This document shows, piece after piece, positions 2,214-52,022 of a stretch of DNA of 64,000 nt. Location of the stretch: NCBI RefSeq assembly GCF_003151255.1, contig NZ_CP029481.1, forward strand, positions 4,155,001 to 4,219,000. Direction: 5' to 3'. The DNA is from Microvirga sp. 17 mud 1-3 (lineage in GTDB: Bacteria; Pseudomonadota; Alphaproteobacteria; Rhizobiales; Beijerinckiaceae). Within the stretch, counting starts at the first letter, position 1. Every line of letters begins with the position of its first letter. Below the pieces are notes generated by a model, which made no database searches, was not told the origin of the DNA, and saw only the letters and a list, made by a program, of their open reading frames with translations. The position numbers and the translations under genes are program-made.

Positions 2214-2363
2214 CCGTCATTCCGGGACAGCTCGGAGAGCTGGGCCCGGAACCCATAACCACAAGCGTCTCAGAACAAGACAGTGCGAGAAACGCTGCGC
2301 TTTATCTTGCCTCGTCAGCGGTTATGGGTTCCGGGCTCCGCTGCGCGGCCCCGGAATGACGGG
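2214..2363 (+). repeat. Family B structured repeat, copy B1
   Basis: Terminal inverted repeats start with CCGTCATTCCGGG and end with CCCCGGAATGACGG. Each arm is interrupted by a small hairpin: CAGCTC-GGA-GAGCTG on the left and CCGC-TGC-GCGG on the right. The inner stem is CCCGGAACCCATAA paired with TTATGGGTTCCGGG, closing a loop of roughly 55 nt. It lies between the convergent genes trxA and folC. Confidence 0.85.
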
Positions 2364-5801: not shown

Positions 5802-5909
5802 TCCCCCTCTCCCATTGGGAGAGGGGCAGGGGTGAGGGGAGAGCGTTGTCCGGAGAAGGCGCAACCCTCACCCGGACCTTCGGTCCGACCTCTCCCACAC
5901 GGGAGAGGT
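5802..5909 (+). repeat. Family A structured repeat, copy A2 (divergent subtype)
   Basis: Same architecture as A1 with different bases. A left hairpin CCCCCTCTCCC-ATT-GGGAGAGGGG is followed by a GGGTGAGGGG arm, then a CCCTCACCC arm, a small ACCTTCGGT hairpin, and a right hairpin ACCTCTCCC-ACAC-GGGAGAGGT. It precedes B2 by 20 bp, as A1 precedes B1. Confidence 0.7.
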
Positions 5910-5929: not shown

Positions 5930-6074
5930 CCGTCATTCCGGGGCGCCGTAGGCGAACCCGGAACCCATAAACACGAGCGGTTCAGAACAAGCTGCTGCGG
6001 CTTCCGTTGCGATCTATTCGACACCGTCAGCGTTTATGGATTCCGGGCTCCGCTGCGCGGCCCCGGAATGACGG
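5930..6074 (+). repeat. Family B structured repeat, copy B2
   Basis: Outer arms CCGTCATTCCGGGGC and GGCCCCGGAATGACGG. The left tip hairpin is CGCC-GTA-GGCG and the right tip is CCGC-TGC-GCGG. The inner arms are CCCGGAACCCATAAAC and GTTTATGGATTCCGGG, with one T-to-A change relative to other copies. It lies inside the trpB-trpA gap, on the strand opposite to those genes' transcription. Confidence 0.85.
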
Positions 6075-28339: not shown

Positions 28340-28446
28340 CCCTCTCCCCCCTTGTGGGGGAGAGTTGGAGGTGGGGGTGTGAGCGCCAGCCTGGATTCAG
28401 CACAGCGCCTGCACCCCACCCTAGCCCTCCCCACAAGGGGGAGGGG
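28340..28446 (+). repeat. Family A structured repeat, copy A3
   Basis: The best-preserved A copy. The left hairpin is CTCTCCCCC-TTGT-GGGGGAGAG. The inner arm GGTGGGGGTGTGAGCGC faces GCGCCTGCACCCCACC. The right hairpin is CCCTCCCC-ACAA-GGGGGAGGGG. B3 begins 18 bp later. The whole 28283-28724 gap between the aldo-keto reductase and thpR consists of A3, B3 and a short leader, with no gene. Confidence 0.78.
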
Positions 28447-28463: not shown

Positions 28464-28610
28464 CCGTCATTCCGGGACGGCCGTTGGCCGGGCCCGGAAC
28501 CCATAAACACCACCGTGTCAGAAGAAAGAGCTGCGTTAACCGCTGCTCTTTATCCTGCTTCGTCAGCGGTTATGGGTTCCGGGCTCCGCTATGCGGCCCC
28601 GGAATGACGG
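28464..28610 (+). repeat. Family B structured repeat, copy B3
   Basis: Outer arms CCGTCATTCCGGG and CCCCGGAATGACGG. The left tip is CGGCC-GTT-GGCCG and the right tip CCGC-TAT-GCGG. The inner arms are CCCGGAACCCATAA and TTATGGGTTCCGGG. The central loop has the family sequence ending CTTTATCCTGCTTCGTCAGC. It lies between two plus-strand genes. Confidence 0.85.
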
Positions 28611-39598: not shown

Positions 39599-40213
39599 AT
39601 GACACACATGACGGGTTTGCTGTTGCCGGCGCGGTTTCGCGTCGCCCTGGCCGTGGTGGCCATGGCCTTCGGGCTCTCCGCCTGCGGCATCAACAACGTG
39701 CCGACCCTCGAGGAGCGGGCGAAATCCGCCTGGAGCGAGGTGCAGAACCAGTACCAGCGCCGGGCCGACCTGATTCCCAACCTGGTCGAAACCGTGAAGG
39801 GCTTCGCCAACCAGGAGCGGGAGGTGCTGACCCAGGTGACCGAGGCCCGCGCCAGGGCCTCGCAGGTCAAGGTCGATGCCTCGACGGTGACCGATCCTGA
39901 AAAATTCCGCCAGTTCCAGGATGCCCAGAACCAGCTCTCCGGCGCCCTCGGGCGCCTGCTCGTAACGGTCGAGCGCTATCCGGAGCTGAAGTCGAACGCC
40001 AATTTCCTGGCCCTGCAATCCCAGCTCGAAGGCACCGAGAACCGCATCGCGGTGGCCCGGCGCGACTACATCGAGGCCGTTCGGGCCTACAATACGGAGC
40101 TGCGGACGATCCCGGGCCGCTGGATCGCGGCAGTGCTCTATCCGGACGCCAAGCCGATGGAGACCTTCACGGCCACGCCCAATTCCGACCGCCCGCCGGC
40201 CGTGAAGTTCTAG
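39599..40213 (+). CDS. LemA family lipoprotein
   Basis: A 204-residue LemA protein with one N-terminal hydrophobic segment ending in a lipobox (LSACGINN, Cys29), so it is probably a lipoprotein. The LemA core is [35 protein letters not shown] and [20 protein letters not shown], a mostly helical bundle. The function is unclear. lemA is commonly followed by TPM-domain genes, as here, and the product is thought to work with them at the membrane. ATG 39599 or 39608 could be the start. The next gene starts 4 bp after the stop. Confidence 0.92.
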
Positions 40214-40217
40214 GCTG

Positions 40218-41105
40218 ATGACAGGCGCGCACCCTTTCCCCTCCCCCTTGCGGGGAGGGTCGGGGTGGGGGTGCCGGCGCTATGCTGGTTTCAGTCCAGC
40301 GCCAACACCCCCCTCTCCAGTTCTCCCCCGCAAGGGGGGAGAGGGCAGGCGTGCGTTCAGCCTCCTCATTCTTTGGATCGCTTTTCTCTTCCCCCTCCTC
40401 GCCCTCGCCCAGTCCTTCCCGGCCCTGACCGGCCGGGTGGTCGATGCCGCGAACCTCCTGAAACCCGAGGAGCGGACGGCGCTGGAGGCCAAGCTGAAGG
40501 CCCACGAGGACAAGACCTCGGATCAGGTGGTGGTCGCGACCGTGCCGTCCCTCGAAGGCTACGAGGTGGAGGATTACGCGAACCGGCTCTTCCGCCACTG
40601 GCAGCTCGGGCAGAAGGACAAGAACAACGGTGTCCTGCTCCTCGTCGCCCCCAAGGAGCGCAAGGTCCGCATCGAGGTGGGCTACGGGCTGGAAGGCGCC
40701 CTTACGGATGCGCTCTCCAAGGTCATCATCACGACGGCCGTCGCGCCCCAGTTCCAGAAGGGCGATTTCGCGGGCGGCATCGACGCGGGCGTCGACGCCA
40801 TCCTGTCGATCCTCACGGGCGATGCCGAGGAATGGCAGCGGCGCGCCCAGGTGCGGGCGGACGAGAGCGATTCCATCGATCCGTGGGTCGCAATCGTCGT
40901 CATGGTGTTTCTCTTTATCGTGATCTCGAACATCGTCCGCGACGCCCGCGGCCGCCCCCTGCGGCGCGGCCGCGGCGGCGGGCCCTGGATCATTCCCACG
41001 GGGGGCGGCTGGTCCGGCGGCTCCGGCGGAGGCTGGTCGGGCGGCGGCGGATTTTCCGGAGGGGGCGGCTCCTCCGGCGGCGGCGGCGCATCGGGGAGCT
41101 GGTAG
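40218..41105 (+). CDS. TPM domain (YgcG-like) membrane protein with repeat-derived N-terminus
   Basis: A 295-residue TPM-domain protein. The TPM fold runs from about [20 protein letters not shown] to [10 protein letters not shown]. One membrane helix follows near [17 protein letters not shown], and the tail is Gly/Ser-rich ([14 protein letters not shown] repeats), as usual for YgcG. It is predicted to be exported, with a hydrophobic core at residues 47-64 and a likely cut after LALA. Unusually, residues about 7-43 ahead of that core are encoded by repeat A4. No ATG, GTG or TTG exists in frame between the repeat and the signal core, so the repeat must be translated. It is coupled to lemA (4-bp gap). 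Confidence 0.88.
40238..40345 (+). repeat. Family A structured repeat, copy A4, inside a coding sequence
   Basis: The left part is CCCCTCCCCCTTGCGGGGAG, then GGTCGGGGTGGGGGTGCCGG. The right part is GCGCCAACACCCCCCTCTCC, then a hairpin CTCCCCC-GCAA-GGGGGGAG. The layout is the same as A1-A3. It starts 20 bp after the ATG of the TPM gene and ends just before its signal peptide. No clear B copy follows, although CCTCCTCATTCTTTGG downstream faintly resembles a B left end. Confidence 0.78.
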
Positions 41106-41714
41106 ATGATCTCGTCCGAAGACCATGCCCGCCTGAGCCAGGCGATCCGCGAGGCGGAGGACCTCACGACCGGCGAGATTGTCGTCGTCGTGTCCGAGCA
41201 GGCGAGCAGCTATCGCTCGTTTCCCGTGCTCTGGGCGCTGCTTGCGGCCCTTGTGGTGCCCTGGCCGCTGATCGCGATCACCACGCTCGGCCCGGCCCGC
41301 ATCTTCCTGATCCAGCTCCTCGTCGCGCTGTTCCTGAGCATCTTCCTGTCGTTTCCATCCCGGCGGCACGCGCTGGTGCCGCGCTTCATCAAGAGGGCGC
41401 GGGCCCGCGAGACGGCCCGGCGGGAATTCCTCGGCCGCGGCCTCACCCGCACCCGGGAGCGCACGGGCGTGCTGATCTATGTCGCCCTGGCCGAGCACCA
41501 TGCGGAGATCATGGCCGATACGGGGATCGCCGACCGGGTCGGGCCGGAAGTGTGGCGCGGCATTGTCGACGAGCTGACGGACAGGATCCGGGAGGGCCGC
41601 CTGACAGACGGGCTCGTCGCGGCCGTGAGGCGCACGGGCGCCATCCTCGCCGAGCATGCTCCGCCCCGCTTCGATGACGTCGACGAATTGCCGAACAAGG
41701 TCTTCGTGCTCTGA
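41106..41714 (+). CDS. TPM domain membrane protein, second copy
   Basis: A 202-residue protein. The N-terminal LSQAIREAEDLTTGEIVVVV is the start of a TPM domain that is interrupted by two membrane helices (about residues 40-85). It then resumes with RTRERTGVLIYVALAEHHAE, TGIADRVGPEVWRGIVDEL and LTDGLVAAVRRTGAILAEH. The start codon lies directly on the stop of the first TPM gene (TAGATG), so translation is probably coupled. The lemA-TPM-TPM trio is a known conserved arrangement of unclear function, probably envelope-associated. Confidence 0.87.
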   Translation: MISSEDHARLSQAIREAEDLTTGEIVVVVSEQASSYRSFPVLWALLAALVVPWPLIAITTLGPARIFLIQLLVALFLSIFLSFPSRRHALVPRFIKRARARETARREFLGRGLTRTRERTGVLIYVALAEHHAEIMADTGIADRVGPEVWRGIVDELTDRIREGRLTDGLVAAVRRTGAILAEHAPPRFDDVDELPNKVFVL

Positions 41715-41726
41715 GGCGACCGCCTC

Positions 41727-42503
41727 TCAGAGATTGCCGCCCTTCGCGGCACCCAGGATCGGACCCGGCTTCGTGCCGTCGCCGGACTGGATGAGCACCA
41801 CATAGCCGTCCGCCTCGCCCCGAGCTTCGGTCAGGGACACCTGGAAGCGGGCCGAGCCGCCCTGCCATTCCCCCACGCGCCTCATGCCGCGCACCACGTT
41901 GGCGTAGGTGACGGTCTTGCCCCGGTTCTCGCCCCGGCCGATGGCCACCTTCTGCTCGCGCATGACCGGCAGGACCCAGACCTCGCCGCGGGACTTGCGG
42001 CCCTCCAGGGCCCGAGGCGGCTCCGCGACCGAGATGGTGACGGTTCCGGCCTCCTCCTTGAGGCTCACGTCCACCGGCAGGGTTCCGCGCCCCTCGGTGG
42101 TGCTCTGGATGGAGGTCTCGACCTTGGACCAGTCGGAGCCGATGCAGGGCTTCATCCCGTTCACGATGACCTGGGGCGTATAGACCTGCCGGTCGCTGCG
42201 GGTGGCCGCATAGGCCTTCTGCCGCGCCGTGAAGAGGGGCTGGGCCAGGGTGTCTTTCCAGCCGAGATAGTCCCAGTAATCCACCGGGAACGAGAGCGCC
42301 ACGATGTCGGACCGGCGCGCCATGCCGGCCAGGAGCGCATCGGCGGGCGGGCAGGACGAGCAGCCCTGGCTGGTGAAGAGTTCCACGACGGCTCGCGGCG
42401 GCTCGGCCGAAGCGGGCTGCACGAAGGCGGACTGCGCGACGGCAGCAAGCCCCAGGAGCGTCAGGGCCGCCTGCGGGCGGGACATGTTCGAACGTGACAC
42501 CAT
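41727..42503 (-). CDS. DUF1223 secreted thioredoxin-like protein
   Basis: A 258-residue exported protein of the DUF1223 family. The signal sequence is PQAALTLLGLAAVAQSAFVQ. The thioredoxin-like core has a CSSCPP motif (VELFTSQGCSSCPPADALLA), followed by FPVDYWDYLGWKDTLA and YTPQVIVNG. Redox activity is plausible from the CxxC but has not been shown for the family as far as I know. The start ATG 42503 (MVSRSNMSRP) has GGGGAT upstream; ATG 42515 is also possible. It lies directly downstream of the lipid A acyltransferase gene (29-bp gap), probably in the same transcript. Confidence 0.85.
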   Translation of the reverse strand: MVSRSNMSRPQAALTLLGLAAVAQSAFVQPASAEPPRAVVELFTSQGCSSCPPADALLAGMARRSDIVALSFPVDYWDYLGWKDTLAQPLFTARQKAYAATRSDRQVYTPQVIVNGMKPCIGSDWSKVETSIQSTTEGRGTLPVDVSLKEEAGTVTISVAEPPRALEGRKSRGEVWVLPVMREQKVAIGRGENRGKTVTYANVVRGMRRVGEWQGGSARFQVSLTEARGEADGYVVLIQSGDGTKPGPILGAAKGGNL

Positions 42504-42532
42504 GGTGATCCCCATGGAACACGAATCCGGCC

Positions 42533-43483
42533 TCAAGGGGAACTCACGTTAGCTTGAGTTCCGGCCGGCACCCGCCAGCGCCTGTGCATCCATAGCCATT
42601 GCTCGGGGTGTTCCCGCACCCACTCCTCGACCACGGAGGTCATGGCCTGCATGGCGCCCTGCACGTCGATGAGTCCTTCAGCGTCCCGGGGCAGGTCGAG
42701 GGGCGGAGTGAGCTGGAGCCGGAAGCGGTAGCCGGGCAGGCGGATCACCCGCACCCCGTGGACCGGGCAGTCGAACCGGCGGGCGAACTTGCCGAGGATG
42801 GGATTCACCAGGGCCGGCCGGCCAAGGAAGTTCACGATCACGCCGCGGGTGAAATGCTGGTCGATGAGCATGCCGAGATGGCCGCCCTTCTCGAGCGCCC
42901 CCTGCATGGCGAAGGCCGCTCCCTGGCGGGCCGCCTCCAGACCGCCCATGGTCTCGGAGCGGATCTCGTGCAGCACCCGCGCGATGGCCGGATCGTTGGG
43001 CGCGCGGAACACCGCCGTCGCGTCGAGCCCGAACCGGGCGGCGCAGATCGCCGGCAATTCCCAGTTGGCGAGATGGGCCGAGAAGATGATGCCGGGCTTC
43101 TCGTCGTCCCGCAGGCTAAGGAAGTGCTCGATCCCGTCCACCTCCGTCCGGCCGGGCTCGGGCCGGTCCGGGTCGTAGTCGAACAGGGCCCCGAGATGCG
43201 GGTATTCACCGCCGACCCGGCCGAGATTGTCCCAGGCGGCCCGCGCGAGCGCCCTCACCTCGGCCTCCGGCTTGCCCGGATAGGCGGCCCGGATATTGGC
43301 AAGGGCCGTCTTGTGGGCCGGAAGGAAGGGGCCGATGGCGCGGGCCAGCGCCGCGCCGACGGCGCCGGACCGCTCGGGGCCGAGGGCCCGCGACAGGGCG
43401 AAGACGCTCCGCACCAGGCCGACCATGACCGTCTCGGTCAGGCGCGAGGCCAGGCTGCGAGGGCGTTGGGAACGATGAACCAC
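42533..43483 (-). CDS. lpxXL: Lipid A acyltransferase LpxXL (LpxL/HtrB family)
   Basis: A 316-residue LpxL-type acyltransferase. The catalytic HX4E motif is in FSAHLANWELPA. Other signatures are GLEAARQGAAFAMQGALEKG, LGMLIDQHF and MHRRWRVP at the end. One N-terminal membrane helix is expected. In rhizobia, LpxXL moves the 27-hydroxyoctacosanoyl-type VLCFA from AcpXL to lipid A. The assignment rests on family membership plus the acpXL-fabZ-fabF2-fabF1-fabG-adhXL genes nearby. Here it is cut off from adhXL by two glycosyltransferase genes and a GIY-YIG gene, and followed by a DUF1223 gene. Confidence 0.88.
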   Translation of the reverse strand: MVHRSQRPRSLASRLTETVMVGLVRSVFALSRALGPERSGAVGAALARAIGPFLPAHKTALANIRAAYPGKPEAEVRALARAAWDNLGRVGGEYPHLGALFDYDPDRPEPGRTEVDGIEHFLSLRDDEKPGIIFSAHLANWELPAICAARFGLDATAVFRAPNDPAIARVLHEIRSETMGGLEAARQGAAFAMQGALEKGGHLGMLIDQHFTRGVIVNFLGRPALVNPILGKFARRFDCPVHGVRVIRLPGYRFRLQLTPPLDLPRDAEGLIDVQGAMQAMTSVVEEWVREHPEQWLWMHRRWRVPAGTQANVSSP

Positions 43484-43544
43484 GGATTCTCCTGAAACGG
43501 GATCGCGAAAAGAGACCGCGTCTTTCCGCGCCTGCCCGGCTTCG

Positions 43545-44714
43545 TCAAGTGCCGGACGTGCGCGATAATTGGTCGTAGAGGCCCGTCAGGACCTCCCGCT
43601 CCCGGTCCCAGCTCAAGGCAGCGGCAGCCGCGAGGGCCTGCCTTTTCATGCGGTCGAGGGCGGGACGGTCGAGGCTGTTGATAGTCTCCGTAATGGCATC
43701 CGCATCGTCGGCCGCGAGGCGCCCGCATTCGAAGCGGGTCACGATCTCGGCCATGTCGGGCAGGGGCGAGGTGACGACCGCGAGGCCTGCCGCCAGGTAT
43801 TCGAACAGCTTGTTCGGCAGGGCGAAGCGGTTGTGGCGGCTCGAATCCGGCAGGATGCACAGCCCCACATCCGCCTCGGCGGCCCGGGAGACCACCTCCT
43901 GGGGAGCAACCGCCGGCTCGAAGCGAACCCGGTCCGCCACGCCCCGCGCCTCGGCACGGGCCTTCAGGGCCGCGAGATAGGCAGGCGCCGCCTGCCCGCG
44001 CAGGGTCAGGCGGAACTCGCTGCGCCAGCGCGGCAGGGAATCGAGGATCGCCTCCAGGCCCCTATTGTCGCGCAGAAGGCCGTGGAACAGGACCTCGATC
44101 CGCTCACCCACGGGCCGGAACGGCGCCAGGGCCGCGGCCGGAACGTTACGGATGATGGCAGGCTTCGGCAGGCCCGGATAGGCCTCGGCCAGGGCCTCGG
44201 CGATGCCGGGGCTCACGGTGATGACCGCATCGGCAGCCCGGATGCCGCGTCCCTCGATGGCCCGCACATGGGCAAGCGCCGCGATCCGCCATTTCAGGCT
44301 GTGCTCATACTCGGCGATCGCCATCTCGTGGCTGTCATAGACGATGCGCGCCCCGAAGCGGGCCTTGGCGTCGAGGGCGAGCGGCAGGGTCGTCCAATCG
44401 TTGGCGTGGACCGCCTCGGGCCGGAAGTCGCGCAGGATCCGCCGCGCCGCCCGCCGCCCCTCGTGGAGCCAGTAGAAGAGATGCGAGGAGGCCGGCAGCA
44501 GGTTGGCCGGGGCCTGCCGCAGCAGGATTCCGGCCCGGATGACGAAGGGCGAGGGCAGCCGGGGCAGGAGCGCGACCCGATAGGGCACGCCCTCTGGCGC
44601 CGGCCCGTAGCCGACGAGCAGGACCTCGTGCCCGGCCCCGTGCAGGGCCTCGGCCGTCCGCAGCACGCGCGAATCGTTGGCCAGGGAATGGAAATCGACG
44701 ACGGCGATGCGCAT
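43545..44714 (-). CDS. Glycosyltransferase (GT4-type, GT-B fold)
   Basis: A 389-residue GT-B glycosyltransferase. It opens RIAVVDFHSLANDSRVLRTA, followed by GHEVLLVGYG and a central VHANDWTTLPLALDAKARFG and VYDSHEMAIAEYE. The donor part includes VLFHGLLRDNRGLEAILDSL and the GT4-like C-terminal RFALPNKLFEYLAAGLAVVT. The start is ATG 44714. It lies between lpxXL (61 bp) and a divergent second glycosyltransferase, so a role in lipopolysaccharide or another surface glycan is likely from context only. Confidence 0.87.
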   Translation of the reverse strand: MRIAVVDFHSLANDSRVLRTAEALHGAGHEVLLVGYGPAPEGVPYRVALLPRLPSPFVIRAGILLRQAPANLLPASSHLFYWLHEGRRAARRILRDFRPEAVHANDWTTLPLALDAKARFGARIVYDSHEMAIAEYEHSLKWRIAALAHVRAIEGRGIRAADAVITVSPGIAEALAEAYPGLPKPAIIRNVPAAALAPFRPVGERIEVLFHGLLRDNRGLEAILDSLPRWRSEFRLTLRGQAAPAYLAALKARAEARGVADRVRFEPAVAPQEVVSRAAEADVGLCILPDSSRHNRFALPNKLFEYLAAGLAVVTSPLPDMAEIVTRFECGRLAADDADAITETINSLDRPALDRMKRQALAAAAALSWDREREVLTGLYDQLSRTSGT

Positions 44715-44962
44715 GAGCGGCGAAAATCCTCTCGAGCATCGGATCGATCCCAGACGAGTCCGAGGCTTCAACCGCGCCGATAGACCGCACGGGCGAGGTT
44801 GTCCAGTAACACGGGCGAAACACTCGACGGAGCCGCAGCGGCTTTGTACAAGGCCGCTCGTTTCCCGAACCCGCGAGCCCTCCCCTGCCCTCCGCCCCGA
44901 AATCCCGCATCCTCTATGTCTGCTGTGAGCGCATCGTCCCGGGCAGCGCCGCCGCGACCCAT

Positions 44963-45985
44963 GTGCTGGAGATCTGCGAGGGCCTGGAGCGGCGCGGCTA
45001 TCCGGTGGCCCTGCGGGCGGAGCGCGGGGCCTCCCGCAGCGGCCTCTTCGGCCAGCTCGGGCGCTATGCCCGCATCACCGTCGCGGGCCTGGCGGGCCTA
45101 CCACGGGCCGACATCGTCTATTTCCGCTCCCATTTCGCGGCCTTTCCCATTGCGCTCGCCGCGAGGATCCTAGGCAAGCCGACGATCCAGGAGATCAACG
45201 GGGTCTATGCGGAGGCCTTCGTGACCCATCCGCGCTTCCGGCGCCTGAAGAGGATCCTCTCGGCCCTCCAGCGGCTGCAATACCGCTGGGCGAGCGCGCT
45301 CATCGCCGTCACGCCCCAGCTCGTCACGTGGGGCTCGGCGGAGGCCGGCCATGTCCGCGCCTTCCACGTGGGCAACGGGGCGAACACCAGACTCTTCACG
45401 CCCGAAGGCCCGCAGACCCGCAGGACACGGCCCTATGTCCTGTTCTTCGGCGGCATGACGCGCTGGCATGGGGTCGAGGTGATGCTCCAGGCCGCCCGCT
45501 CCCCGGGCTGGCCTGACGGGACCGACCTGCTGCTCGCCGGCCCGATCGTCGACGAGAGCCTGCGGGCCGCCCTCGAGGGAGCGCAGGCCCCCGTGACGTG
45601 GCTCGACCGGGTCGCGCAGAAGGATCTGCCGGCCCTGATCCGCGGCGCTGTGGCGGCGCTCGTGCCGAGCGTGGATCCCAGCGGCATCACGGCCCACGGC
45701 ATCACGCCCTTAAAACTCTTCGAGATGCTGGCCTGCGGTCGGCCGGTGGTGGTCAGCGACTTCAAGGGCATGGCGGATATCGTCCGGGGCAGCGGCTGCG
45801 GCCTCGTCGTCCCGTCGGGCGATCCGGAGGCGCTCGCCCGCGCCGTCGCGGACCTCTCGGCCGACCCGTCTAAAGCCAAGACCATGGGCGAGGCCGGGGC
45901 CCGGCTGATCGCCGCCGAACATTCCTGGGACGTCAGGGCCGCCGAGACGGCCGCAGTGATCGAGGACGTTCTCGCAAGGGGATAG
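44963..45985 (+). CDS. Glycosyltransferase (GT4-type), start codon unclear
   Basis: A GT-B glycosyltransferase. The donor domain shows VLFFGGMTRWHGVEVMLQAA, WLDRVAQKDLPALIRGAVAA and KLFEMLACGRPVVVSDFKGM. The given start is the first in-frame ATG/GTG/TTG (GTG 44963). The protein fold clearly begins earlier: codons 44906-44962 encode RILYVCCERIVPGSAAATH, the expected first beta strand and loop of the acceptor domain. The frame is open back to a stop at 44807 with no canonical start; CTG 44885 or ATC 44909 are the only candidates. Either a rare start codon is used or a nearby indel has displaced the original start. It is divergent from the other glycosyltransferase and followed by repeat B4. Confidence 0.82.
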   Translation: MLEICEGLERRGYPVALRAERGASRSGLFGQLGRYARITVAGLAGLPRADIVYFRSHFAAFPIALAARILGKPTIQEINGVYAEAFVTHPRFRRLKRILSALQRLQYRWASALIAVTPQLVTWGSAEAGHVRAFHVGNGANTRLFTPEGPQTRRTRPYVLFFGGMTRWHGVEVMLQAARSPGWPDGTDLLLAGPIVDESLRAALEGAQAPVTWLDRVAQKDLPALIRGAVAALVPSVDPSGITAHGITPLKLFEMLACGRPVVVSDFKGMADIVRGSGCGLVVPSGDPEALARAVADLSADPSKAKTMGEAGARLIAAEHSWDVRAAETAAVIEDVLARG

Positions 45986-46004
45986 GGGCTCGCCTATAAG
46001 CACA

Positions 46005-46154
46005 CCGTCATTCCGGGGCGCCGCAGGCGAGCCCGGAACCCATAAACACCAACGTTTTACAATGGGAAGCTGCGAAATCCGCCGCTCTTTATCCTGCACC
46101 GTTAGCGGGTATGGGTTCCGGGCTCGCACCTAAAGGTGCGCCCCGGAATGACAG
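46005..46154 (+). repeat. Family B structured repeat, copy B4 (left flank of GIY-YIG gene)
   Basis: Outer arms CCGTCATTCCGGGGC and GCCCCGGAATGAC. The left tip is CGCC-GCA-GGCG. The right tip is a new hairpin, GCACC-TAAA-GGTGC, in place of the CCGC/GCGG tip of B1-B3. The inner arms are CCCGGAACCCATAA and TATGGGTTCCGGG. It ends 62 bp before the GIY-YIG start, and that spacer is A/T-rich. Confidence 0.85.
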
Positions 46155-46216
46155 AGGAGGAGCTTGTCAGCTTATTGTAATTAAGTACCATTTGCTGCCA
46201 GATCAGTCGAGGCAGC

Positions 46217-46504
46217 ATGGCTTACTACGTCTATCTCTTGGCCAGTCGCCGGCATGGAACGCTTTATCTTGGCGTCACCAACGATCTGTCCCGCCGCGTC
46301 CATGAGCACAAATCCAAAGCGATTCCCGGCTTTTCCGCAAAATACGATGTCCAGCGCCTTGTCTGGTACGAAACTTACGAGCGCATCGATGAGGCGATTG
46401 CGCGAGAGAAGAGCCTCAAGAAATGGCGGCGGGATTGGAAGATCAGATTGATCGAAGACATGAACCCCGACTGGTCGGATCTCTATCTCATCCTCAACCA
46501 GTAA
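46217..46504 (+). CDS. GIY-YIG nuclease family protein, bracketed by B repeats
   Basis: A 95-residue stand-alone GIY-YIG domain of the UPF0213/YhbQ-like class. The opening MAYYVYLLASRRHGTLYLGV holds the GIY and YIG equivalents (YVY and YLG), followed by TNDLSRRVHEHK with the catalytic Arg. YDVQRLVWYE comes next, and AIAREKSLKKWRRDWK contains the catalytic Glu, followed by LIEDMNPDWSDLY. All active-site residues appear present, so it is probably an active DNA nuclease. B4 lies 62 bp upstream, and a partial B left end at 46507 plus full B5 lie directly downstream. Together they sit as one block between the glycosyltransferase and adhXL. Its link to the repeats is inference. Confidence 0.9.
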   Translation: MAYYVYLLASRRHGTLYLGVTNDLSRRVHEHKSKAIPGFSAKYDVQRLVWYETYERIDEAIAREKSLKKWRRDWKIRLIEDMNPDWSDLYLILNQ

Positions 46505-46534
46505 CATCGTCATTCTGGGACAGCGCGTGCCTCC

Positions 46535-46683
46535 CCGTCATTCCGGGGCCGCGGAGCGGAGCCCGGAACCCATAAACGCAACCATCTCAGAATAGAGAGC
46601 CGCGAAAGCCGCTGCGTCTTATTCATAAAGCTCAGCGTTTATGGGTTCCGGGCCCGGCCCCTTGGGCCGTCCCGGAATGACGG
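46535..46683 (+). repeat. Family B structured repeat, copy B5 (right flank of GIY-YIG gene)
   Basis: Outer arms CCGTCATTCCGGGGC and CCCGGAATGACGG. The left tip is CCGC-GGA-GCGG, the type seen on the right side of B1-B3. The right tip is GGCCC-CTT-GGGCC. The inner arms are CCCGGAACCCATAAAC and GTTTATGGGTTCCGGG. A partial copy of the left end (CGTCATTCTGGGAC) lies at 46508-46521. B5 ends 10 bp before the adhXL stop codon. Confidence 0.85.
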
Positions 46684-46692
46684 TGCACGACC

Positions 46693-47715
46693 TCAGAACG
46701 TCACGACCACCTTGCCGAACACCTTGCGGCTTTCCAGCCGCTCCAGCCCCTTCTGGAAATCGTCGAGGGGGAAGATCGAATCGATCACCGGCGTCATGCC
46801 GCCGGCCATCTTCTCCAGGGATTGCGCAATGTTCTCGATGCGGCAGCCAAAGGAGCCGAAGATCCGGTATTGCTGCTGGAAGAGCTGCATGAGGTTCATG
46901 GTGGTCGAGACCCCGCTCGTGGAGCCGCAGGTCACAAGGCGTCCGCCCCGCTTGAGGCAGAGCAGCGAGCCGTTCCAGGTATCGGCGCCCACATGCTCGA
47001 ACACCACGTCCACACCCTTCCGCTTGGTCAGGCGACGCACCTCGCCCTCAAAGCGCTCCGTGCGGTAGTTGACGACGTAGTCGGCGCCCAGGGCCTTCGC
47101 CTTCTCGCCCTTCTCGTCGTCGCCAACGGTCGTATAGACCGTGCAGCCGATGGCCTTGGCCATCTTGATGGCCGCCGTGCCGATGCCCGATCCGCCCGCA
47201 TGGACGAGGATCGATTCGCCGGGTTCCAGCTTCGCGTTATCGAAGAGCATGTGCTGGACCGTGCCGAAGCCGATGGGCGCGCAGGCCGCATCCGTGAAGG
47301 ATACGCCCTGGGGCACCGGGATGACGAGCCGCTCCGGCCGGTTGATCAGCTCACGGGCGAAGCCGTCGATGTGGAAGCCCATGATGCCGGCAACGTTCTC
47401 GCAGAGATTGTCGCGGCCCTCCCGGCAGGCCTTGCAATGGCCGCAGGTCTCGGCGCCGTACATGGTGACCGGATCGCCGGCCTTGAACCGGGTCACGCCC
47501 TCGCCCACCGCCGCGATCTCGCCGGAAGCCTCGACGCCGACCGCCTGCGGCATCTTGCGCTTGGCGAAGGCCATGCCGCGAAAACCCCAGACGTCGAGAT
47601 AGTTCAGGGCGAGCGCCTTCACGCGCACCTGCACCTCGCCCGGGCCGGGCGGCGGCGGAGCGTCCATCTCGGTCAGGCGAAGGTCGCGGTCGCCGAAAAG
47701 CTGAAGGGCACGCAT
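46693..47715 (-). CDS. adhXL: Zinc-binding dehydrogenase of the lipid A VLCFA cluster
   Basis: A medium-chain dehydrogenase/quinone reductase-like protein of 340 residues. The structural-zinc cluster ETCGHCKACREGRDNLCENV has four cysteines. The GroES-like part has VGVEASGEIAAVGEGVTRFK and the cofactor loop is SILVHAGGSGIGTAAIKMAK. The orthologous gene (adh2XL) in rhizobia sits between fabF1XL and lpxXL and takes part in making or modifying the lipid A very-long-chain fatty acid, probably as an enoyl or hydroxyl oxidoreductase. Here 140 bp separate it from the Nudix gene upstream. That gap holds a CCGG-rich palindrome. Confidence 0.85.
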   Translation of the reverse strand: MRALQLFGDRDLRLTEMDAPPPPGPGEVQVRVKALALNYLDVWGFRGMAFAKRKMPQAVGVEASGEIAAVGEGVTRFKAGDPVTMYGAETCGHCKACREGRDNLCENVAGIMGFHIDGFARELINRPERLVIPVPQGVSFTDAACAPIGFGTVQHMLFDNAKLEPGESILVHAGGSGIGTAAIKMAKAIGCTVYTTVGDDEKGEKAKALGADYVVNYRTERFEGEVRRLTKRKGVDVVFEHVGADTWNGSLLCLKRGGRLVTCGSTSGVSTTMNLMQLFQQQYRIFGSFGCRIENIAQSLEKMAGGMTPVIDSIFPLDDFQKGLERLESRKVFGKVVVTF

Positions 47716-47771
47716 GGGTTCGATCCTTGACGTATCTCGCCGTTCCGCCGGAAGAGCCCTGCGAAACGCGG

Positions 47772-47792
47772 TCCCCGGGACGGGCCCGGGGA
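47772..47792. repeat. CCGG-rich palindrome between the Nudix gene and adhXL
   Basis: TCCCCGGGACGGGCCCGGGG folds into a short stem of the family D type, followed by ATGACATGG. No T-run follows on the minus strand, so it is not an obvious intrinsic terminator. Confidence 0.45.
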
Positions 47793-47855
47793 TGACATGG
47801 AATATTCCTGAAGGCGATTAAAGCCCGGTCCTGCCGATGACAAGCTCCGGCCTCT

Positions 47856-48389
47856 TTACCGGGCCGCGAGATGACGCTCCGCAAGCAGGAGGGCGACGCA
47901 GGTCGGCCCGTGGACGATGCGGGCCGCCACGACCTCCGCAACGGCATCCGACAGGGACATCTCGACCGGCTCGATGACTTCGCCCGGATCGGGGTTGGTC
48001 GCCGTCGGCGACAGTCCCTCGGCCAGGAAGAGATGGCTCGGCGAGGACACCCCGGCCGTAAACGGATGGACCAGACCGAGCGGGGTCATGGTCTCGGCCT
48101 TGAAGCCGATCTCTTCGACGAGTTCCCGGTGGGCCGCATCGACCGGCTCCTCGCCCGGCTCGATGGCTCCGCTCACCGCCTCGAGGCTGTATGCGCCCAG
48201 GGCATAGCGGAACTCTCGCGTCAGGATGACGCTTCCGGTGGACGTCACGGCGATGACGCTGACGCCCGGCGGCTTGATCACCACCGAATAGGTCCCCTGG
48301 TGCCCATTGTCCCAACGGACCTCGTCCCGGACGACGCGGGTCCATGGGTCCTCGTAAATCGTCTCCGACGACAGGGTCTTGCAGCGCAT
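47856..48389 (-). CDS. Nudix hydrolase
   Basis: A 177-residue Nudix hydrolase. The Nudix box (G-x5-E-x7-REx2EExGx) is visible as GAIEPGEEPVDAAHRELVEE followed by IGF. The upstream VSVIAVTSTGSVILTREFRY and the AYSLEAVSGAIEPGEE layout resemble ADP-ribose/NDP-sugar pyrophosphatases. It lies 7 bp downstream of the fabG-like gene and belongs to the VLCFA transcript. A Nudix enzyme is not an established VLCFA component; it may act on a nucleotide sugar used in LPS synthesis or simply be carried along. Confidence 0.88.
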   Translation of the reverse strand: MRCKTLSSETIYEDPWTRVVRDEVRWDNGHQGTYSVVIKPPGVSVIAVTSTGSVILTREFRYALGAYSLEAVSGAIEPGEEPVDAAHRELVEEIGFKAETMTPLGLVHPFTAGVSSPSHLFLAEGLSPTATNPDPGEVIEPVEMSLSDAVAEVVAARIVHGPTCVALLLAERHLAAR

Positions 48390-48396
48390 CGAGCGT

Positions 48397-49143
48397 CTAC
48401 CGGTGAATGCCGATCATGGAGGTCAGACCGCCGTCGATGGGCAGGACCGCGCCGGTCATATAGGCGGCGGGCTCGCTTATGAGGAAGGCCGCGAGGCCCG
48501 CGATCTCCTCGGGCTTCGCGAAGCGCCCGGCCGGGATCTGCTTCTCCATGCTTTCCCGGAAGGCCGCGTAGGGCGCCATCATGTCTGTGTCGATGAAGCC
48601 CGGCGCGATCACGTTAACGGTCAGCCCGCGCTTCGCGGTCTCGATGGCGAGGGTGCGGCAATAGGAGATGAGCGCCCCCTTGGAGGCCGCATAGGCGGCA
48701 TTGCCGGGATTGCCCTGGAGGGCCGCGACGGAGCCGATGGCCACGATGCGACCGGCGCGGGCGCGGATCATGCCGCGCATGAGGGACTTGGCGATCCGCG
48801 TGAAGGACCAGAAGTTCACCTGCATGGCGCCTTCGGCCTTGTCCTGCTGCATCATGGCAGCCAGCGCGTCATAGGGCTGGCCGGCATTGTGCACGAAGCC
48901 GAAGAACGCCTCGGATTCGAGGCTCGCGCAGAAATCGTCGAGGGCTTCCTTATGGGACAGGTCGAGGGCATGGGTCTTGACCGTGCGGCCCGGATGGGCG
49001 GCCATCAGATCCTCGGCCAGCGCCACCGCGGCGCCCGTGGAGGAGCGGTAGGTGAAGTCCACGTCGTGGCCGGCCGCGACCAGCGCCCGCACGATGGCGG
49101 CGCCGACGCCCTTGCCGCCGCCCGTCACGAAGATCCGGCCCAT
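48397..49143 (-). CDS. FabG-like 3-oxoacyl-ACP reductase of the VLCFA cluster
   Basis: A 248-residue SDR. The cofactor loop is MGRIFVTGGGKGVGAAIVRA. The Asn motif is FVHNAG, the catalytic Ser is in IVAIGSVAALQGNPG, and Tyr/Lys are in AAYAASKGALISY. PGFIDTDMM is the FabG-type C-terminal segment. In context it should reduce 3-oxoacyl-AcpXL during VLCFA elongation. It starts 2 bp after fabF1 ends, so translation is tightly linked. Confidence 0.88.
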   Translation of the reverse strand: MGRIFVTGGGKGVGAAIVRALVAAGHDVDFTYRSSTGAAVALAEDLMAAHPGRTVKTHALDLSHKEALDDFCASLESEAFFGFVHNAGQPYDALAAMMQQDKAEGAMQVNFWSFTRIAKSLMRGMIRARAGRIVAIGSVAALQGNPGNAAYAASKGALISYCRTLAIETAKRGLTVNVIAPGFIDTDMMAPYAAFRESMEKQIPAGRFAKPEEIAGLAAFLISEPAAYMTGAVLPIDGGLTSMIGIHR

Positions 49144-49145
49144 GC

Positions 49146-50426
49146 TCAAGCCCCTTTCGGCTCCGCCCCGAAGACGAGGCAGGTGTTCTGGCCGCCGAAC
49201 CCGAAGGAATTCGACATGACGAAGCGGACATCCGCGTCCCGCGCCTCGTTCGGGACTACGTCGAGCGGAATCGTGGGGTCCGGGACCTTGTAGTTGATGG
49301 TCGGCGGAATGCGCCCGGTCGCGAGGGTGAGCAGCGACATCACGGCCTCCACGGCGCCGGCGGCCGTGAGCGTGTGGCCGATCATCGACTTGTTCGACGA
49401 GATCGGCAGCTGCGCCATGCGCTCGCCGAACACGGCCGTGCAGCTCATGGCCTCCATCTTGTCGTTCTCGGGCGTCGATGTGCCGTGGGCGTTGATGTAG
49501 CCGATATCGTCGGGCGCAAGGCCCGCATCGGCCAGCGCCTCGCGGATCGCCGTGATGGCCGGCATCCCGTCCGGCGAGGAGCGGGTGCGGTGGAAGCCGT
49601 CGCCCTTCTCGCCGCAGCCGAGCACGTAGCCGAGAATCGTCGCGCCACGGGCCTTCGCGGCCTCGGCATCCTCGAGCACGAGGGCGGCTCCGCCCTCGCC
49701 CATCACGAACCCATCCCGGTTCTTCGAGAAGGGCTTGGAGGCCGCCTCCGGCACCTCGTTCTGGGTCGAGAGCGCGGAGAGCAGCGAGAAGCGAACGAGG
49801 GATTCGGGGTTCACGGAGCCGTCCGTGCCGATGCAGAGCGCCGCCTGGGTCTCGCCGCGCCGGATCGCCTCGACCCCGAGCTGGATCGCCGTGGCGCCGG
49901 ACGAGCAGGCGGTGGAGAGCGAGATCGGCGAGCCCTTTGTGCCGAACCGATCGGCGACCCGGTCGGCGACCGTGCCGAAGATGAACAGGTCGTGCCAAGC
50001 CTTGAATTTGCCTGTGGCGGCCGCCTTCAGGAGATCCTTGTAGGTGATGTCCCCGGTCTGGCCGGAGGCCTCCGCCAGGGCCTCCCGCTGGGGCCATTCC
50101 ATCTCGACCGGCGGCACGGCGATGAACAGGGCGCCCGGAAAGTCGCTCCGGCTCAGGCCCGACTGGCCCACCGCCTCGTCGGCGGCCCGCAGGGCGAGCT
50201 GCTCGGACAGCATGGGTGCGCAGAAGGGCTCGACTGCGATGGAATCGATGGTGCCCGCGATGGTGGTGCGCAGGCCCTCGACGGGGAAGCGCGAGATGCG
50301 GCGGATGCCGGACTGCCCTGCCGTGAGGGCCGCCCAGGTGTCGTCCTTGCCTTGGCCCAGGGACGTGACTACGCCCATGCCCGTGACGGCGACGAGCGGA
50401 CGGCCCTGGTTGTCGCGAAGCGCCAT
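49146..50426 (-). CDS. fabF1XL: Beta-ketoacyl-ACP synthase FabF1XL
   Basis: A 426-residue KAS II-type ketosynthase with a complete Cys-His-His triad: the nucleophile in SLSTACSSGATAIQ, the first His in NAHGTSTPENDKME, and the second in NKSMIGHTLTAAGAVEAV. It extends acyl chains on AcpXL toward C28. It is the catalytically complete partner of the two ketosynthases here and lies 10 bp after fabF2. Phylogenetic placement as FabF1XL follows from the acpXL-fabZ-fabF2-fabF1 order. Confidence 0.9.
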   Translation of the reverse strand: MALRDNQGRPLVAVTGMGVVTSLGQGKDDTWAALTAGQSGIRRISRFPVEGLRTTIAGTIDSIAVEPFCAPMLSEQLALRAADEAVGQSGLSRSDFPGALFIAVPPVEMEWPQREALAEASGQTGDITYKDLLKAAATGKFKAWHDLFIFGTVADRVADRFGTKGSPISLSTACSSGATAIQLGVEAIRRGETQAALCIGTDGSVNPESLVRFSLLSALSTQNEVPEAASKPFSKNRDGFVMGEGGAALVLEDAEAAKARGATILGYVLGCGEKGDGFHRTRSSPDGMPAITAIREALADAGLAPDDIGYINAHGTSTPENDKMEAMSCTAVFGERMAQLPISSNKSMIGHTLTAAGAVEAVMSLLTLATGRIPPTINYKVPDPTIPLDVVPNEARDADVRFVMSNSFGFGGQNTCLVFGAEPKGA

Positions 50427-50436
50427 GCCGGTCTCC

Positions 50437-51561
50437 TCACTCTGCCTTGGTCAGCCGCACGGCACCCTCGCCGCGCCAATGGCCGACGGAGGTGACGAGC
50501 GCCTCGTTGGATTGCCCCCGGGCGATCAGGGCGGCCGCCAGGGCGACGCCCGACGGCACCTGGCCCTCCATCATGTGGCCGGTCACGTTGCCGGTGGCGT
50601 GGAGCGCGGCCTCCGGGAAGGTCTCGCGCAAGGCGGCCTGCTCCTCCTCGGTGACGTCCTTGATGCCCGTGGCGCCCGACACGATGGCGTCGGGCCGGGC
50701 GTTCAGGGCCGCGATCTGTGTCCGCAGGGCCTGCCCGACGCTGCCGGGCGTGCGCCGGCTGCGGTCGGACACGATGCCCGCGACGGTCGCAAGCGACGTC
50801 GCGCCCCGCGCTGCCGCATGTTCGCGGGATTCCATCACCAGGAAGCAGGCGCCGGATCCCAGGATCATGCCGCCGCCCTCGGCGGGACGCTCCCAGACGG
50901 GGCGATAGGCCTGCTTCCAGAGGAAACCGCCCATTTCGTAGATCAGCAGCACGTCGGGCCGCTCGGCATTGTAGGCGCCGCCGACCAGGAAAATGTCGTT
51001 CTGCCCCGAGGCGATGCGCGCATGGGCGACGCGAAGTGCGTCGACGCCGCTCGATTCCTCGCCCATGAAGGTGCGCGACGCCCCCGTGACTCCATGAACG
51101 ATGGAGATGTTGCCCGCCAGCAGGTTGGAGAGCTGGGCCAGGAACAGGGTCGGCCGCAGGTCGCCCATCAGGCGCTCGTTGAGGAACACGCCCGGATTCT
51201 CGGCTGCGCGCAGGCCCGTGAGGATCTGCCCGTCGACCGCGTAATCGCGCTCGCCGCCGCCGGCCGCCACGATCAGGTGCATGCGACTTTTCAGCTCCGC
51301 ATCCTCCTTGGCGCCGGCCGCATCGAGGGCAAGGCCCGCCGCATAGCAGCCCAGCTTCTGCCAAGCCTCCATCTGCCGCTGGTCGGATTTCTTGGCGATC
51401 TGCCGGTCGTAATCCGGCGTTGCCACCGGATGGACCGGATAGGGCGCGAAGCTCTCGGTGTCGATGCGGGGCGCGCCTGCGGAGAGCGCCTCCAGGTGGG
51501 CGTCGATTCCCTCCCCGGCGGCCGAGACGATTCCGATTCCCGTGATGACAACGTCGCGCAT
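50437..51561 (-). CDS. fabF2XL: FabF2XL, ketosynthase-like protein lacking catalytic residues
   Basis: A 374-residue thiolase-fold protein related to KAS II. The nucleophile region reads VHGVTGASRTFMGEESSGVD, so the expected Cys is absent. The first catalytic His region is IVSGATGIKD, also without His. The second, GNVTGHMMEGQVPSG, keeps its His. This resembles the chain-length-factor partners of type II polyketide synthases. It probably forms a heterodimer with FabF1XL and sets chain length; that is inference. Its start overlaps the fabZ stop by one base (TGATG). Confidence 0.86.
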   Translation of the reverse strand: MRDVVITGIGIVSAAGEGIDAHLEALSAGAPRIDTESFAPYPVHPVATPDYDRQIAKKSDQRQMEAWQKLGCYAAGLALDAAGAKEDAELKSRMHLIVAAGGGERDYAVDGQILTGLRAAENPGVFLNERLMGDLRPTLFLAQLSNLLAGNISIVHGVTGASRTFMGEESSGVDALRVAHARIASGQNDIFLVGGAYNAERPDVLLIYEMGGFLWKQAYRPVWERPAEGGGMILGSGACFLVMESREHAAARGATSLATVAGIVSDRSRRTPGSVGQALRTQIAALNARPDAIVSGATGIKDVTEEEQAALRETFPEAALHATGNVTGHMMEGQVPSGVALAAALIARGQSNEALVTSVGHWRGEGAVRLTKAE

Positions 51562-52022
51562 CAGGCCGCCTCCGCCAAGAGCCCGATGCGGCGCGCCTGG
51601 GCCCGCATCAGCTCGTCCATGCCGGCCGGGAAGGGCATGATGCGGAAGCGCAGCTCCGCATCGCAGATGGGCTTGCCCTCGGCCATGATCTTCGCCTTCG
51701 TGACCGCATAGCCCGAGCCCTCGTGCTCGAGCTGCGCCGTGACGGTGAGCACCGTATCGGGTCCGACGAAGGTGCGAAAGCGCGCCTTGTCGACCGCCAT
51801 GAGGAACGGCATGTGGGTGAAGTTCATGAGCCCCAGCACGAGATAGCCGGAGGCCTGGGCCATGGTCTCGGTGAGCAGCACGCCGGGCACCAGGGGATGA
51901 CCCGGGAAATGCCCTTCGAAGACCGGGCTTTCCGTCGGCACCGTGGACGTGGCCTCGATCCGGCGGCCCTCGCGGTCGAGGCGCGTCACCCGATCGATCA
52001 TTTCAAAATATTCGAGACGCAT
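51561..52022 (-). CDS. fabZXL: 3-hydroxyacyl-ACP dehydratase FabZXL
   Basis: A hot-dog-fold dehydratase of 153 residues. The active-site His is in EGHFPGHPLVPG and the catalytic Glu in VLLTETMAQASGYLVL. It starts MRLEYFEMIDRVTRLDREGR at ATG 52022. It dehydrates 3-hydroxyacyl-AcpXL in VLCFA elongation. acpXL lies 182 bp upstream, a larger gap than elsewhere in this operon. The downstream fabF2 start overlaps its stop. Confidence 0.9.
   Translation of the reverse strand: MRLEYFEMIDRVTRLDREGRRIEATSTVPTESPVFEGHFPGHPLVPGVLLTETMAQASGYLVLGLMNFTHMPFLMAVDKARFRTFVGPDTVLTVTAQLEHEGSGYAVTKAKIMAEGKPICDAELRFRIMPFPAGMDELMRAQARRIGLLAEAA

Follow-up and report, generated by a model that had tools for sequence, protein, structure and literature searches.

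A GIY-YIG nuclease gene bracketed by inverted CGTC-tagged REP palindromes: a candidate dedicated enzyme for this class of repeats

Repetitive extragenic palindromic (REP) sequences with a GTAG tag have REP-associated tyrosine transposases (RAYTs) as their companions, and the available text of PMC3116915 describes REPINs and how single REPs can arise through deletion inside a REPIN. A superfamily with another tag, CGTC, was surveyed by Di Nocera in 2013 and, as far as the main text of the survey goes, is apparently without a dedicated transposase (PMC3733652). According to the same text these REPs occur mostly in Alphaproteobacteria, with Bradyrhizobium, Neisseria dRS3 and Rickettsia RPE repeats among those listed, a check of tyrosine transposase genes showed no CGTC repeats at their flanks, and other transposase classes showed few fortuitous associations; GIY-YIG does not occur in it. 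Here we describe, in a 64,000-nucleotide stretch of the Microvirga sp. 17 mud 1-3 chromosome (NZ_CP029481.1, positions 4,155,001 to 4,219,000; hereafter the window), the gene for a small GIY-YIG nuclease placed between two inverted dimers of CGTC-tagged REPs (the B repeat). The pairing of this gene with REPs is not a matter of chance and recurs across distant bacteria.

Neither GIY-YIG nor nuclease is mentioned in the main text of the paper that describes Br-REP1 and Br-REP2 of Bradyrhizobium as repeat elements (PMC5082802), and in PMC8266576 and PMC6006769 no word of the main text begins with GIY. RayT and GIY-YIG genes appear as separate entries of one table in PMC9465073, while the accessible part of PMC10928387 gives no link between them. 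Literature searches, made mainly at title level and excluding preprints and most subscription journals, returned no paper linking GIY-YIG to REPs.

The window is part of a 4.40-Mb chromosome (the own genome, G000) that is Microvirga-like by its nearest named relatives. Between the genes of a glycosyltransferase and a zinc alcohol dehydrogenase (the GT-ADH site) it carries, in this order, the repeat copy B4 (46005..46154, forward strand, GTC...GAC core 46007-46152), the complete nuclease gene (46217..46504, forward strand, 95 aa, ATG...TAA), a partial REP end, CGTCATTCTGGGAC, directly past the nuclease stop codon (46508..46521, forward strand), and the repeat copy B5 (46535..46683, forward strand, core 46537-46681). 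B4, which is REPIN-like, and B5 are both complete inverted-REP dimers of identical orientation, each consisting of a left REP hairpin on the forward strand (46007..46045 in B4, where it is CGTC-tagged, and 46537..46575 in B5) and an inverted right hairpin on the reverse strand (46110..46152 and 46639..46681). A re-reading of the sequence agreed with a preliminary description of the locus in order, positions and neighbouring genes. That description had likened the layout to REP sequences with a RAYT, but with a GIY-YIG enzyme in its place, and this was borne out: no Y1 transposase (PF01797, Y1_Tnp) was found in the own genome, and the family was absent from 42 and present in 6 of 48 Microvirga genomes.

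The link between gene and REPs was assessed in 80 loci of titled records, the best 80 of 217, which were found from the protein alone (the relatives sample). The REP end motif (A motif), scored within 250 bp of the gene with one mismatch allowed, was present on both sides of the gene in 65 of the 78 loci with enough flank, compared with 1/2824 equal-sized control placements within the same loci. It was found on at least one side in 76/78 loci (controls 157/2824), and among all 80 loci it was lacking in 14, either on one side (12 loci, one of them short of flank) or on both (L051 and L093). The preliminary description had held that its proposal would fail if homologues mostly lacked flanking repeats, and this is not what was found. 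In most loci of Bradyrhizobium, Rhodopseudomonas and Enterovirga, and in others, a single inverted REP pair surrounds the gene; its upstream motif typically ends, on the inward side, about 45 bases before the start codon, and the other motif starts about 60 bases past the match. Such a single pair, and not two complete B copies, encloses the gene in most fetched relatives outside Microvirga; within Microvirga it is mostly flanked by complete dimers, on one side or on both.

A wider survey, with a profile of 21 members against 397 Pseudomonadota genomes, found the nuclease family in 145 of them at E 1e-10, with up to 7 matches per genome. Here 89 loci were examined (29 supplied by the search program and 60 chosen from the listed matches down to E 6.9e-35, in most cases a single locus per genome). 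An inverted repeat between the two flanks, scored blind to REP type, reached at least 15 in 55 of the 85 loci with full flanks, against 2/557 controls, and at least 18 in 51/85, against 0/557. Exact CGTC hairpins stood on both sides in 32/85 loci (controls 2/551) and on either side in 51/85 (controls 37/551). Bracketing by B-like palindromes far more often than chance, as the preliminary description had proposed, thus holds in both samples.

Tagged hairpins on at least one side were also seen, by eye and without a control, at the 14 loci fetched from the 34 records of a plasmid collection, with records from Neisseria, Sinorhizobium, Rhizobium, Shinella, Sphingobium, Novosphingobium, Azospirillum, Aeromonas, Photobacterium, Planktothrix and Spirosoma. 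By eye, the hairpins adjoining nuclease copies are GTCA-tagged in Neisseria, S. meliloti, Sphingobium, Azospirillum, Planktothrix and Spirosoma, and L157 and L158 have a CCTC-tagged hairpin only, on one side. On the Planktothrix plasmid (L154, 1992-2276) the GIY-YIG gene lies between genes for an MmeI-type restriction enzyme and DISARM drmA, with GTCATTCTGAG repeats around it.

Within Microvirga, where 38/48 genomes have a relative at E 0.001, the pairing is specific. Among the 70 genes fetched, one (L193) is an outlier and the others were assigned to subfamilies A to F. The subfamilies form separate protein clusters, with mean identities of 0.79-0.87 within and 0.48-0.58 between A-E; some flanks had been inspected before the subfamilies were named, and the protein clustering was checked afterwards. 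Cognate REPs were counted as exact diagnostic words within 300 bp; a count with one mismatch mixed types A, B and C. The own REP word accompanied 16/20 genes of subfamily A, 9/10 of B, 9/9 of C, 9/10 of D and 10/10 of E, that is 53/59 genes in the five subfamilies together. One word is common to D and E, and the C word turned up additionally at one E locus; no other crossing was seen. There is one REP type per nuclease subfamily in Microvirga, and since several genomes hold two to four subfamilies, the cognate pairing does not simply reflect genome-wide repeat content. None of the ten subfamily F genes (L195-L204, 33-43% identical to the nearest query) had any of the tested REP words, and neither had the outlier L193; the distant subfamily F may be an ordinary housekeeping relative.

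The window open reading frame matches the GIY-YIG family PF01541 with 55.7 bits (cut-off 22.6) and carries Y6, Y17, G19, R27, H31, E64 and N83. Each of Y17, R27, H31, E64 and N83 is conserved in 230 to 232 of 232 proteins, the catalytic residues R27 and E64 in 231 and 232, respectively, in a count that includes some genomes twice and excludes copies with stops. The median dN/dS was 0.09 (73/91 pairs; 18 were not computable, and synonymous change is near saturation). The nuclease is under purifying selection, with conserved catalytic residues. Its nearest solved structures are the UPF0213 single-domain GIY-YIG proteins PDB 1zg2 (E 7e-10) and 1ywl (E 6e-6), and more distant matches are UvrC (E 0.0055), SLX1 (E 0.07) and PDB 1mk0 (E 0.21). 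NCBIfam models gave no match to the nuclease, and the names of its homologues, in the 120 listed of 3698, are generic. Some nuclease copies (L025, L028, L029, L033, L054, L071 and L113) have stop codons inside the matched stretch.

The B repeat is about 145 bp in total and consists of two inverted CGTC-tagged REP hairpins (GTCATTCCGGGGC-stem-loop-GAGCCCGGAACCCATAA) around a spacer of about 65 bases. We examined 41 dimers, namely B4, B5 and 39 other places in the own genome, chosen by similarity to the whole dimer. Each of the 40 fetched places (B5 and the 39 others) is a complete inverted (HH) dimer of 140-150 bp, an arrangement for which this whole-dimer match selects, and gene-less dimers are dispersed throughout the genome. 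The true number may be higher, since only 40 of 96 blastn candidates were scored; B4 has at least 73 blastn matches in the own genome, both strands being counted because the repeat is palindromic, and the word GTCATTCCGGGGC occurs 79 times. The dimer ends are mostly GTCA, preceded by C or T at both ends in 40/40 fetched places, and the resulting CGTC or TGTC end adjoins a short A-T-started stem, as in the CGTC-tagged REP superfamily. When folded as single-stranded DNA, B4 and B5 gave z values of -8.30 and -8.31, with 0/200 shuffles equally stable. In the left REP stem 38 cells were changed on both sides, against 14.9 in shuffles, and 97.8% of the cells were paired; the stem of the left hairpin is maintained by compensatory change.

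Three more copies in the window have no nuclease, in accordance with the preliminary description: copy 1 at 2216..2360, which is not among the fetched dimers, copy 2 at 5932..6072, and copy 3 (B3) at 28466..28608, which is absent in the Microvirga genomes G023 and G024 and degenerate in G044 (no strand is assigned to the three). The own genome has only two GIY-YIG matches, the window gene and one within a 722-residue open frame, which we take to be UvrC, so that none of the three solo copies is accompanied by a nuclease. A second repeat family, with a C-rich hairpin as in CCCCTCCCCCTTGTGGGGAGGG, is found in the window at 2098-2142, 5803-5847, 28343-28387 and 40237-40281. It begins about 120-130 bp left of these three B copies, so B may belong to a larger mosaic repeat, and its fourth copy has no adjacent B. 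The window is also inverted from about 32.0 to 38.8 kb relative to G023, G024 and G044, and inverted REP dimers lie at both breakpoints of this inversion in G023 and at the right one in G024.

Both filled and empty sites exist between relatives, which is what the preliminary description had suggested looking for. The GT-ADH site is empty of both repeat and gene in G044 and G024, contains one solo B, which aligns with B5, in G023, and carries B4, the gene, the partial end and B5 in the own genome; G023, G044 and G024 carry their A gene elsewhere. In Azospirillum lipoferum a unit of REP, gene and REP is placed between sufB and sufC; A. oryzae, A. ramasamyi and B510 lack this unit, and a separate unit of another REP type occupies the same suf operon gap in Shinella PSBB067. 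Sphingobium TYG46 and TYG73 have REP-gene-REP at a site where TYG64 has one REP palindrome, TYG74 a degenerate one, and TYG72 and TYG65 other sequence. The dimers and the gene unit thus vary in presence and absence at orthologous sites.

One series of sites bears on the origin of dimers. S. meliloti L153 has two adjacent units, one intact and one of 160 bp (1669-1828), the latter being a REP dimer in which the spacer consists of the 3' end of the gene. In Sinorhizobium K101 a single palindrome stands in place of this 160-bp remnant and the intact unit is absent. The series of intact unit, dimer with a gene remnant and single palindrome suggests internal deletion of a unit as one way for dimers to arise; read in the reverse direction it would represent insertion into a palindrome.

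REP copy number was compared with the presence of the gene. In Microvirga the median number of A motifs was 29 in genomes with an A gene and 5 in those without (p=3e-4; this and the other copy-number P values ignore phylogeny), and A genes did not predict the motifs of subfamilies B, C or E (p 0.42, 0.39 and 0.21). E genes predicted E motifs (69 versus 11.5, p=0.002), and subfamily-B genes were associated with B-type motifs (p=3e-5). For one REP type in the phylum sample, the gene (E 1e-20) was present in 20/27 genomes with at least 10 copies and in 91/370 with fewer (p=3e-7); at E 1e-10 the numbers were 20/27 and 125/370 (p=5e-5), and thresholds of 1, 5 and 20 copies agreed. The preliminary description had expected copy number to follow the gene and had taken equal abundance of the repeat without it as a sign against its proposal. 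For groups of genomes the expectation stands and equal abundance is not seen, but single genomes, such as the 7/29 without an A gene that nevertheless have at least 20 A motifs, do show abundance without the gene. Copy number thus tracks the gene partly, and many REP-rich genomes are without the matching gene.

Taken together, the findings favour, by a modest degree, the reading that the nuclease is the dedicated enzyme of its CGTC-tagged REPs, in a REPtron-like system built on another enzyme, with cleavage and mobilisation inferred. Its role would best be explained as parallel to what RAYT transposases are thought to do for GTAG-tagged REPs. The nuclease would recognise its REP through the GTCA tag and the folded hairpin, and would nick or cut the REP when this is extruded or single-stranded. 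Host repair could then copy the REP dimer, or the whole REP-gene-REP unit, into new sites, sometimes at or beside an existing REP. The enzyme would in this way spread or maintain dimers in trans and itself in cis, and gene-less dimers could also arise through internal deletion of a unit. The chances are about even that the proposal extends further, with GIY-YIG nucleases serving as dedicated mobility enzymes throughout the CGTC-REP superfamily, Neisseria dRS3-type and rhizobial repeats included, each lineage co-evolving with its own hairpin and replacing, or being independent of, the Y1 RAYTs; this would constitute a previously unrecognised class of mobile DNA.

Several observations weigh against a dedicated enzyme. 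L051 and L093 have no A motif within 250 bp on either side, although L051 has another REP type, and 30/85 phylum loci are below the inverted-repeat score of 15; many of the 22 of these that were read by eye have single or same-direction tagged hairpins. The neglect of phylogeny in the copy-number P values counts here too, as does the imperfect specificity of the associations: C motifs are associated with E genes as well (p=0.009), and their link with C genes is not significant (p=0.1). B-type motifs number only 26 in 48 genomes (at most one mismatch), 7/26 of them beside a B gene or remnant, so subfamily-B genes have not spread theirs. REP-rich genomes without the gene include 7/27 in the phylum sample (no match at E 1e-10), 7/29 Microvirga genomes without an A gene but with at least 20 A motifs (12/19 with the gene; the seven are G001, G005, G027, G029, G031, G034 and G040), and 11/38 without an E gene but with at least 40 E motifs, up to 219 in G041 (8/10 with the gene). 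No subfamily has a match in G001, G017, G034 or G041, and in G005 there is only a distant match, some of these genomes being fragmented drafts. No clean target-site duplication or exact junction was found in the Microvirga, Azospirillum, Sphingobium and Sinorhizobium comparisons, in which the flanks have diverged. Finally, many Bradyrhizobium loci share one site, and the gene there is therefore largely vertically inherited.

The main rival, which we regard as unlikely but the most serious, is that the nuclease is a homing-type passenger: it would recognise REP palindromes as insertion sites for its own gene, which it would copy into them or next to them, the dimers being spread by another route. 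The window gene lies beside B5, which occurs alone in G023, so that the gene seems to have arrived next to an existing repeat, and the single palindromes of Sphingobium TYG64 and Sinorhizobium K101, at sites where relatives have units, fit the same course of events. The REP-rich genomes without a matching gene would likewise be expected if REPs did not need the nuclease. GIY-YIG homing enzymes are known, I-TevI being one such endonuclease, and PDB 1mk0 is among the distant matches mentioned above. On the other hand, in most non-Microvirga loci of the relatives sample the gene is enclosed by one inverted REP pair across short spacers, an arrangement resembling a unit that has ends of its own, and REP copy number goes with the matching gene for A, for E and in the phylum sample. 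A deletion between short direct repeats in the two REPs would also account for the single palindromes, and the available text of PMC3116915 and the internally deleted unit of L153 provide parallels. Homing of an intron was set aside: Rfam gave no match at gathering score in window positions 40000-52000, and the nuclease is a free open reading frame between two genes.

Less probable still is a structure-resolving or housekeeping nuclease, which would trim REP cruciforms to protect the chromosome, while the flanking REPs would be RNA hairpins that regulate or terminate its own message, with no mobility involved. The low dN/dS and the shared Bradyrhizobium sites fit a maintained host gene, and UvrC and SLX1 are distant structural matches. 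Against this, the 80 loci of the relatives sample fall into 30 loosely linked flank groups, and the neighbours of the window gene are at no other fetched nuclease locus of L012-L120. There are, moreover, up to 7 matches per genome, some copies have stop codons, and one unit lies inside the suf operon. The two large flank groups, mostly of Bradyrhizobium, are largely one chromosomal site with the unit in opposite orientations. These opposite-orientation sets of Bradyrhizobium and kin (L061 and L080 versus L083, L100 and others) comprise 18 and 17 loci, with a mean protein identity of 0.80 within and 0.74 between them.

Very improbable is hitch-hiking, in which intergenic REPs are dense and moved by RAYTs or other transposases and the nuclease gene is merely among them: chance clustering was set aside by the control placements (1/2824 and 2/557) and by the 0/10 of the same-genus subfamily F genes, and mobilisation by a RAYT by the failure to find Y1_Tnp in the own genome (found in only 6/48 of the genus), to which the transposase checks of the 2013 survey, as given in its main text, may be added (PMC3733652).

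If the reading of a dedicated enzyme is correct, two unrelated nuclease folds, Y1 and GIY-YIG, have reached the same repeat-keeping arrangement. The pairing predicts the matching DNA for each member of the nuclease family, which can be tested in vitro with the 95-residue protein. In comparison with known proteins, the nuclease resembles the UPF0213 proteins of PDB 1zg2 and 1ywl, deposited as hypothetical proteins, in being a single-domain GIY-YIG protein of similar size. With GIY-YIG homing endonucleases such as I-TevI it shares the catalytic domain and a gene that spreads beside its target, but here the gene is free-standing and no intron was found in the stretch searched with Rfam.

As for the repeats, the B REPs agree with the CGTC-tagged REPs of the 2013 survey, as its main text describes them, in their CGTC or TGTC tag, A-T-started stem and inverted dimers, and differ in having a candidate dedicated nuclease where none was apparent (PMC3733652). 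What moves these REPs was left open in that text, and the pairing described here names one enzyme family. The published Br-REP2 consensus contains the same CCCCGGAATGA end (PMC5082802, main text). The closest parallel in organisation is the REPtron, in which a RAYT (TnpA-REP, of the Y1/HUH type) goes with GTAG-tagged REPs or REPINs. As far as the consulted texts describe it, in both systems inverted REPs bracket a small gene for the enzyme, inverted dimers without a gene are numerous across the genome, and each enzyme goes with a REP type of its own (PMC3116915, PMC8266576). The present system differs from the REPtron in that several nuclease copies per genome occur, the candidate enzyme is GIY-YIG (PF01541) and not Y1/HUH, and the tag is GTCA/CGTC and not GTAG.
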